Source: an uncultured Methylophilaceae bacterium (GTDB taxonomy: Bacteria > Pseudomonadota > Gammaproteobacteria > Burkholderiales > Methylophilaceae). Taken from it: a stretch of 64,000 bases of DNA. A program made the translations under genes and the position numbers. Below the pieces are notes generated by a model that saw nothing but the letters and a program-made list of their open reading frames with translations, did not search any database and was not told the DNA's origin. The stretch lies in the NCBI GenBank assembly GCA_903834185.1, contig CAILHX010000006.1:1-64000 (forward strand). Reading direction: 5' to 3'. Positions 21,761-52,545 of this stretch are shown one piece after another. How positions within the stretch are numbered: position 1 is the first letter of the stretch; every line of letters starts with the position of its first letter.

Positions 21761-22150
21761 ATGGCTGATAAAAAAATGAAGTTTCTGGTAGTGGATGATT
21801 TCTCCACTATGCGCCGGATTGTGATGAACCTGTTGAAAGAGCTGGGTTATTCCAATATGGAAGAAGCGGAGGACGGTGTAGTCGCGCTGAAGAAACTCCA
21901 AGCTGAAAAATTCGATTTCGTTGTGACCGACTGGAATATGCCGAATATGACCGGTCTGGAATTACTGGTGGCCATCCGCAAAGACGATAAGCTCAAAGGC
22001 TTGCCTGTGTTGCTGGTCACCGCCGAAGCCAAAAACGATAACATCGTAGCGGCGGCGCAGGCAGGAGCCAGTGGTTATGTGGTGAAACCCTTCACCGCAG
22101 TTATCCTGGAAGAAAAGCTCAACAAGATCATTGAAAAGCACGGGCTTTAA
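21761..22150 (+). CDS. cheY: CheY chemotaxis response regulator
   Basis: A single receiver domain of 129 residues with every key CheY position at the E. coli numbering: Asp12/Asp13, phospho-acceptor Asp57 (VTDWNMPN), Thr87, Tyr106 and Lys109 (VVKPF). The N-terminus [21 protein letters not shown] and the C-terminal helix also match true CheY, which binds the flagellar switch FliM when phosphorylated. No other chemotaxis gene is near, so it is an orphan locus here and CheA must be elsewhere. It is transcribed after pheA with a 47-base gap. Confidence 0.92.
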
Positions 22151-22174
22151 ACAAAAGCACGGGTTTTTAAGCGG

Positions 22175-22205
22175 AGCAGGGCGTGCTGAAGCGTCCTGTT
22201 CTTTT
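22175..22205 (+). terminator. Probable weak terminator after cheY
   Basis: AGCAGGGCG pairs with CGTCCTGTT (two G-U pairs) across an 8-nt loop and is followed by CTTTT. It lies 25 bases after the cheY stop. The T tract is short. Confidence 0.5.
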
Positions 22206-22318
22206 ATGATTTCCTTATGGCATTCCCTTTCAGCACCTCCAACGATATTTTCCAGGTTGCTTAATCGCAACTTAAGTCATTCCTGTCATTGACTAATCAT
22301 GTGCTTACTTATATACTG

Positions 22319-22342
22319 TTTTAGTCTTATATAAGACTAAAA
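22319..22342. promoter_or_regulatory. Perfect 24-bp palindrome, candidate operator of the aldehyde dehydrogenase gene
   Basis: The half-site TTTTAGTCTTAT is followed directly by its exact reverse complement with no spacer. It ends 109 bases before the aldehyde dehydrogenase ATG in a 301-base gap that has no gene. It lacks a loop and a T tract, so it is better explained as a dimeric regulator site than as a terminator. Confidence 0.7.
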
Positions 22343-22451: not shown

Positions 22452-23975
22452 ATGGGTCTAATGGAAAGTTTGAGTGGTTTAGGTGTCAAGAGCCCTTACA
22501 AGGCTAAGTACGAGAACTATATAGGCGGTAAATGGACGGCTCCGGTAGATGGACAGTATTTCGATAATATCAGCCCGGTAACCGGCAAAGTGTTTTGCCA
22601 AGTTGCACGTTCCAATGAAAAGGATGTAAATCTGGCATTGGATGCAGCGCATGCTGCAAAGGAAGCCTGGGGTAAAACATCCTATAGCGCGCGCGCTATT
22701 ATCCTGAACAAGATTGCCGATGTCATGGAGGCTAACCTTGCCACCATTGCATTAGCTGAAACGCTAGACAACGGCAAGCCGTTACGCGAAACGACCTATG
22801 CCGATATTCCTCTGGCTATTGACCACTTCCGCTACTTTGCGGGCTGTATCCGTGCTCAGGAAGGCAGCACTTGCGAGATTGATGATACGACCGTTGCCTA
22901 TCATTTCCATGAGCCTCTGGGCGTTGTTGGTCAAATTATTCCATGGAATTTCCCTATTCTCATGGCGGCATGGAAACTGGCACCAGCACTTGCTGCGGGT
23001 AACTGCATTGTCATGAAGCCAGCAGAACAGACTCCGGCGTCGATCCTGGTCGTGCTGGAGTTGATAGGCGACCTGCTTCCGCCGGGGGTGCTGAATGTGA
23101 TCAATGGTCATGGTCTCGAAGCTGGTAAACCTTTGGCATCAAGTTCAAGAATCGCCAAAATCGCATTTACAGGCTCAACTTCAGTTGGTCGTATGATTAT
23201 GCAATATGCATCCCAGAATCTGATTCCAGTTACCTTGGAACTCGGCGGCAAATCTCCCAATATCTTCTTTGAAGACATCATGGATGCAGATGATGACTAT
23301 TTCGATAAGTGTCTGGAAGGTTTCGCGATGTTTGCGCTGAATCAGGGCGAAGTCTGTACTTGCCCATCGCGTGCACTCATTCAGGAATCCATCTACGACA
23401 AATTCATCGAGCGCGCCATCAAGCGTGTCAAGGCCATCAAGCAGGGAAATCCATTGGACATGACAACCATGATTGGCGCTCAGGCTTCGAGCGAGCAGAT
23501 GGAAATCATCATGTCCTACATCAACCTGGGCAAGGAAGAGGGCGCGCAAGTGCTAACCGGCGGCAATGCCACCAAGTTGGCAGGCGAACTGAGCGAAGGT
23601 TATTACATCGAACCTACCGTGTTCAAAGGCAATAATAAAATGCGCATTTTCCAGGAAGAGATTTTCGGACCGGTGCTTTCCGTGACCACCTTCAAGGATG
23701 AAGCAGAAGCACTTGCCATTGCAAATGACACGATGTACGGCCTTGGCGCAGGTGTCTGGTCGCGTGATGGTAACCGTGCGTTCCGCATGGGGCGTGGTAT
23801 TCAGGCAGGTCGCGTGTGGACCAACTGTTACCACCTCTATCCGGCACATGCTGCATTCGGCGGCTACAAGCAATCCGGTATCGGTCGTGAGAACCACAAG
23901 ATGATGCTCGATCATTACCAACAAACCAAGAATTTGCTGGTCAGCTACAGCCCCAAGGCTTTAGGTTTCTTCTAA
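22452..23975 (+). CDS. NAD-dependent aldehyde dehydrogenase (AldB/ExaC-like)
   Basis: Oxidises aldehydes to carboxylates. The 507-residue enzyme has the NAD-binding Rossmann region [19 protein letters not shown], the general base Glu263 ([10 protein letters not shown]), and the nucleophile Cys302 in [13 protein letters not shown] with Cys304 next to it, as in AldB/ExaC enzymes. [11 protein letters not shown] ends the oligomerisation region. A strong GAGGAG site precedes ATG 22452. A DUF779 gene follows, a pairing common for this subfamily. In a methylotroph the substrate may be acetaldehyde or another short aldehyde; this is inferred. Upstream lies the 24-bp palindrome. Confidence 0.92.
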
Positions 23976-24005
23976 TTCCAGCTGGTTGCAGCAGAGAGCG
24001 TAAAG

Positions 24006-24045
24006 CGGGTGAGGCAATGTAAGTAAAATGTCTCACCCGTTTTTT
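24006..24045 (+). terminator. Terminator between aldehyde dehydrogenase and DUF779 genes
   Basis: CGGGTGAG (24006-24013) pairs with CTCACCCG (24032-24039), followed by T6. It would reduce read-through from the dehydrogenase gene into the DUF779 gene. Confidence 0.82.
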
Positions 24046-24099
24046 ATTGATACACTGGATATGACGTAATCATTGCATGTGCAGATTAAAGGAATCAGT

Positions 24100-24480
24100 A
24101 TGACAGCGTCCCGTATTGTAGCAACGCCAGCAGCTTCGGCTCTGCTTGAAGAACTCAAGGCAAAGCATGGCCGGTTAATGTTCCATCAGTCTGGAGGTTG
24201 TTGTGAGGGTAGTGCGCCGATGTGCTTGCAGGAAGGTGAAATGTTTATCGGCAGCTCTGACGTCAAGCTGGGCGTGATCAATGATGTACCGTTTTACATG
24301 GCCAAGTTTCAGTACGAATACTGGGAACACACGCATTTAACGCTGGATGCAATTCCTGGTCACGGCGGTATGTTTTCGCTGGAGCAGGGTACGGGCAAAC
24401 ACTTCCTTATACGATCACGCCTGTTTACCGATGAAGAATGGGAGCAACTGAAGCAGCAACCCGTGGAGCAATGCGGCTAA
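24100..24480 (+). CDS. DUF779 family protein
   Basis: A 126-residue protein of a family that regularly sits beside AldB/ExaC-type aldehyde dehydrogenases. The family is of unknown biochemistry. The conserved HQSGGCCEGSAPMC segment (about 39-52) holds three cysteines and a His that could bind a metal, and TLDAIPGHGGMFSLE is also conserved. ATG 24100 has AAAGGA nine bases upstream and is preferred over a TTG at 24073. A terminator follows. A role in maturing or assisting the dehydrogenase is a guess from context. Confidence 0.85.
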   Translation: MTASRIVATPAASALLEELKAKHGRLMFHQSGGCCEGSAPMCLQEGEMFIGSSDVKLGVINDVPFYMAKFQYEYWEHTHLTLDAIPGHGGMFSLEQGTGKHFLIRSRLFTDEEWEQLKQQPVEQCG

Positions 24481-27934: not shown

Positions 27935-27959
27935 TATGTACTCTCCATTATTAGTTTGT

Positions 27960-28022
27960 AGTCGTTAGTCGTTAGTTGGTAGTTGGGTTGTGTCGTTAAC
28001 TAACGACTATCCACTAACGACT
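27960..28022. repeat. Two-plus-two inverted repeat in the leuD-leuB gap
   Basis: AGTCGTTAGT occurs at 27960-27969 and 27967-27976; its reverse complement ACTAACGACT occurs at 27999-28008 and 28013-28022. Either pair can form a 10-bp stem. No T tract follows on either strand. Confidence 0.75.
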
Positions 28023-52458: not shown

Positions 52459-52545
52459 TTAGCCACAGATGGTCACAGATAAAAGAGGGGAAATCGCAAA
52501 TTATTTTTATCTGTGTTCATCAGTGTTTATCTGTGGTTATAAAAA
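52459..52545. repeat. CACAGAT inverted-repeat element between cysH and cysD
   Basis: TAGCCACAGATGGTCACAGA on the left is mirrored by TTTTTATCTGTG and TTTATCTGTGGTTAT on the right (52504-52540). Repeats of the ATCTGTGGTT / AACCACAGAT type are common dispersed intergenic elements in bacteria. The gap contains no gene. Confidence 0.75.

Follow-up and report, generated by a model that had tools for sequence, protein, structure and literature searches.

What does a 24-bp perfect palindrome do in front of an aldehyde dehydrogenase gene, and which protein would read it? This question is raised by a locus in a 64-kb stretch of DNA from an uncultured Methylophilaceae bacterium (hereafter the window), in which an earlier sequence-only reading had singled out the palindrome as a likely control element.

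The palindrome and the promoter of exaC

The palindrome occupies positions 22319-22342 (no strand assigned) and consists of TTTTAGTCTTAT followed directly by ATAAGACTAAAA, with full self-complementarity and zero spacer. It ends 109 bases before the ATG (22452) of the dehydrogenase gene, as the sequence-only reading had described, and is the longest perfect palindrome of the window, the runners-up being 16 and then 14 bp. That reading had also held a chance origin to be very unlikely, in agreement with the expected numbers of perfect 24-bp palindromes: 0.0055 per 64 kb under a first-order Markov model, 0.0086 per 64 kb with local composition, and 4 × 10−5 inside the 301-bp intergenic region upstream of the gene. 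The gene itself (22452-23975, forward strand; 507 aa; PF00171) had been labeled AldB-like. We show that it does encode an aldehyde dehydrogenase but that exaC (acetaldehyde dehydrogenase) is a better name than aldB, its product scoring 948.9 bits against NCBIfam NF050026 (cut-off 900). Downstream on the same strand lies a DUF779 gene (24073-24480; PF05610), a usual neighbour of this aldehyde dehydrogenase and named in the same pair in plasmid records, which may or may not be part of the exaC transcript. In the gap between the two genes (24005-24050), GGGTGAG...CTCACCCGTTTTTT was spotted by eye as a repeat that resembles a terminator but has a long loop.

Upstream of exaC, a CheY-like response regulator gene (21761-22150, forward strand; ORF and domain match) runs in the same direction, so the site has no competing divergent gene, and a terminator-like hairpin 3' of that gene (22173-22202, forward strand; terminator scan) suggests that exaC has its own promoter. 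The sole sigma-70-like promoter predicted between the two genes pairs a putative −35 box TTGACT (22289-22294) with a putative −10 box TATACT (22312-22317), both on the forward strand. This TTGACT-N17-TATACT arrangement (22289-22317) has 10 of 12 consensus matches, and shuffles yield 0.6 such hits in 401 bp. The predicted transcription start, near 22324, falls within the palindrome, which extends from about −5 to +19 relative to it.

We rejected an intrinsic terminator at the palindrome, which the sequence-only reading had also thought unlikely: the terminator scan returned none there, and the structure has no loop and an AT-rich rather than G+C-rich stem. Elsewhere in the window, two isopropylmalate dehydrogenase/aconitase-type genes flank an inverted repeat of TAGTCGTTAGTCGTTAGTT units (27959-28016), and an imperfect 21-nt inverted repeat with a 20-nt spacer, CACAGATGGTCACAGATAAAA, is found at 52464-52525.

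The core motif and its proposed regulator gene across genomes

The whole 24-mer occurs once in the genome, with up to 3 mismatches allowed, and in a search of 60 relatives the window itself was the sole match. That search alone looked like non-conservation; a search with the 14-bp core GTCTTATATAAGAC (22324-22337, no strand assigned) then revealed conservation. The core, which is a literature motif, is common to gntR (sdhR) promoters and the exaC promoters of relatives. It has 16 copies in 13 of the 61 genomes of the order, against 0 for the reversed control. Half of the copies (8/16) directly precede a GntR/UTRA gene, several of these beside malate dehydrogenase, and among the others are sites ahead of genes for isocitrate lyase or fructose-bisphosphate aldolase.

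The window's genome has one GntR-family gene, of the HutC/UTRA type (G000:C8:50618-51352, 244 aa), whose product carries a GntR DNA-binding domain (PF00392, 5.7 × 10−20) and a UTRA domain (PF07702, 5 × 10−27). Beside it, one strand bears citrate synthase, PrpB-like, HpcH/HpaI, MaoC-type hydratase and CitE genes, and the other bears, in a row, gntR itself, malic enzyme, sdhC (Sdh_cyt), sdhA and a gene for an sdhB-like Fe-S protein. This SdhR ortholog sits between the citE/prpBC-like genes and malic enzyme-sdhCAB, and its linkage to succinate dehydrogenase genes is borne out by the sdhA score (928 bits vs a cut-off of 727). Its own promoter carries the motif in a spaced form, with half-sites ATGTCTTATATATTACATAAGAC, so that in the window's genome the compact palindrome occurs only before exaC. 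At this promoter (L048:1501-1521, G000:C8), the GTCTTAT and ATAAGAC half-sites stand 7 bases further apart, and same-genus genomes have the compact form. The regulon of the window's genome was sought by patterns only. A second near-perfect copy, TTATGTCTTGTATAAGACATAA, with one core mismatch, was observed at G000:C55:18440-18453 (L047:1501-1514), flanked by the end of an MCP gene and by small ORFs that match no known family.

Ahead of their own genes, the 29 best relatives of the regulator have (A)TGTCTTATATAAGAYAT or a close variant, and nearly all relatives show the compact form. The motif-bearing regulators are clustered on a protein tree (2 changes vs a shuffled mean of 10.8; 0/500 shuffles as low), with one sister set of paralogs inside this part of the tree lacking the motif. 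A sister group of HutC paralogs in the order (L309 and L310, from G058 and G038) shares a different upstream element, GTCAACTAGATGAGTT, which is probably another regulator's site. Of 187 Methylophilaceae genomes, 119 contain the motif RTCTTATATAAGAY and 122 the regulator; comparison of the two listings gave 115 genomes with both, 7 with the regulator only, 4 with the motif only and 61 with neither (Fisher P = 4 × 10−36, an optimistic value, as related genomes overstate independence). All 4 motif-only genomes are <80% complete. Among near-complete genomes, 79 have both, 4 the regulator only and none the motif only, the motif being absent from all 36 near-complete genomes without SdhR. The reversed-pattern control was found in 5 genomes, against 119 for the true motif. 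In other family members, sites precede genes for malate:quinone oxidoreductase, acetyl-CoA acetyltransferase, acetate-CoA ligase, an acetyl-CoA synthetase-like protein, fructose-bisphosphate aldolase and H+-pyrophosphatase, so the candidate targets there appear to be mostly in central carbon metabolism and acetate handling.

We scored the regions upstream of exaC with a matrix built from the regulator-promoter sites and found a site of at least 8 bits in 20 of the 59 regions whose genomes have SdhR and in 0 of the 28 whose genomes lack it (P = 1 × 10−4, likewise optimistic; SdhR presence was labeled by hand, and one genome supplies two regions). The core precedes exaC in G004 and G026, two genomes of another genus, immediately 3' of a −10-like TATCCT. 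In genomes of genus g7, the sites are found at roughly −226 to −268 relative to the start codon, which places them upstream of, rather than on, a conserved TTGATT-N17-TATTGT promoter; control may therefore not have the same sign everywhere. In G065 (L220), a spaced form, GTCTTATATATGATATATAAGAC, stands before exaC and resembles the G000:C8 regulator promoter. The same-genus drafts G001 and G002 (72-81% complete) have the regulator and its site but yielded no exaC ortholog, so they do not bear on the exaC site. In a named-genome collection, 79 exaC loci, most of them from outside the family, were scored and none had a site (top score 1.4 bits); therefore, the exaC link looks confined to Methylophilaceae.

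Because the core is kept before exaC in relatives and before the regulator gene in almost all relatives that possess it, and tracks the presence of the regulator, we read the palindrome as a regulator's site. Overall, these genome comparisons strongly support a real regulatory site; its motif is known, and its candidate target is new as far as the literature searched shows. The sequence-only reading had named a lack of conservation in relatives and of regulator-linked copies as the outcome that would speak against it, and the opposite was found on both counts. Its proposal of a dedicated repressor or activator holds for the regulator site, given the conservation and the regulator linkage, but not for the dedication, as the core matches the motif of SdhR, a shared regulator of the sdh/methylcitrate region.

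Proposed control of exaC and its alternatives

The palindrome is very probably a site for the SdhR ortholog, the one GntR-family regulator found in the genome, which would most likely repress exaC until released by a central-carbon metabolite. We infer that an SdhR dimer would occupy both GTCTTAT half-sites, between which the predicted exaC start falls; as the site covers that start, the bound repressor would block RNA polymerase and keep exaC repressed. Increased central carbon flux might then raise the ligand of the UTRA domain and release SdhR, and exaC would be made alongside the sdh, malic enzyme and methylcitrate-type genes. Such a scheme suggests that acetaldehyde dehydrogenase is switched jointly with TCA and methylcitrate genes, and not by a regulator of its own.

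Activators are rarely placed at or directly after a −10 box, which is where the site stands in the window, in G004/G026 and in G029, and the closest solved full-length relatives of the regulator, YvoA and DasR, are both named repressors. It is thus rather unlikely that SdhR binds the palindrome to activate exaC, or acts both ways, even though the g7 sites upstream of the promoter would suit an activator, which may be the case in those relatives, as would the joint rise in situ of a gntR gene and its methylcitrate cluster in two Methylotenera species, described in passages of PMC3728764. A different regulator dedicated to aldehydes might explain why the outer arms TTTTA/TAAAA deviate from the SdhR consensus and why the exact 24-mer is single in the genome, but we regard it as very unlikely, given that none of the 28 SdhR-less relatives keeping exaC has such a site before it and that no DNA-binding regulator gene immediately adjoins exaC.

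The predicted transcript starts within the palindrome and its first bases could pair, as would be expected of a 5'-end hairpin that protects the exaC mRNA or controls its translation. However, the folding of the leader does not surpass that of shuffled sequences (z = −0.9), and the leader has no Rfam match, the stem is AU-rich, and the g7 motif lies upstream of the promoter, so it is not transcribed from that promoter; a role in RNA is accordingly highly improbable. Finally, a functionless chance palindrome would be compatible with the about two thirds of SdhR-positive relatives that lack a site before exaC, but its probability is close to negligible against an expectation of 0.0055 per window and a core that matches the literature motif of a regulator encoded in the same genome.

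Comparison with known SdhR operators and the methylcitrate cluster

For SdhR, which is a HutC-subfamily GntR regulator, the published motif is TCTTATGTCTTATATAAGACATAAGA (Suvorova et al. 2015, PMC4494728, citing Suvorova et al. 2012, J Bacteriol 194:3234, regarding SdhR). The inner 14 positions are identical at exaC (14/14; 18/26 overall), and, as with known SdhR operators, a regulator gene of the same subfamily stands beside sdh genes, here in the same genome as the site. In contrast, the outer TCTTAT...ATAAGA boxes are absent at exaC, where 4 of the 12 outer positions match and A/T-rich arms take their place; a lower affinity is therefore possible, and the site scores 17.4, the weakest regulator-promoter site in the matrix scoring 20.0. 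Many regulator-promoter sites of the family retain the left outer box only, so outer symmetry is not universal, and we therefore name the palindrome an SdhR-type operator. The target, exaC, is a further difference. It is new for SdhR as far as the literature searched shows, the RegPrecise regulon lists lying outside that search; the parts are known, and the link between SdhR and exaC is new to us.

The protein itself shares with ExaC a score above the curated cut-off and the DUF779 neighbour; no unusual feature was seen in it, and only its upstream control is in question. For the regulator, the closest solved sequence over the ligand domain (residues 86-243) is PDB 3cnv, a putative GntR-family regulator (E = 1 × 10−37), although that entry comprises the ligand domain alone and its name assigns no function.

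Passages of PMC3728764 call it unknown what the methylcitrate cycle does in Methylotenera and similar methylotrophs. Through the proposed operator, the central-carbon regulator SdhR would extend to a gene outside the TCA cycle, and a common operator before exaC would connect the regulator of the methylcitrate cluster with one particular oxidation step, which would leave a short substrate list. Tentatively, SdhR in Methylophilaceae could be a switch that links the methylcitrate/sdh cluster to the oxidation of aldehydes (acetaldehyde or propionaldehyde) to acids by ExaC; this would suggest that the cluster naturally serves C2/C3 aldehydes or acids in these methylotrophs. The same passages, which mention neither an operator nor a target beyond the cluster, place the gntR of the methylcitric-acid-cycle cluster (mmol_0754, m301_0692) among the genes most over-expressed in situ in two Methylotenera species. 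In Methylotenera as here, gntR lies within the methylcitric-acid-cycle gene cluster, and from this gene context we infer that it is the same gene as the SdhR ortholog.
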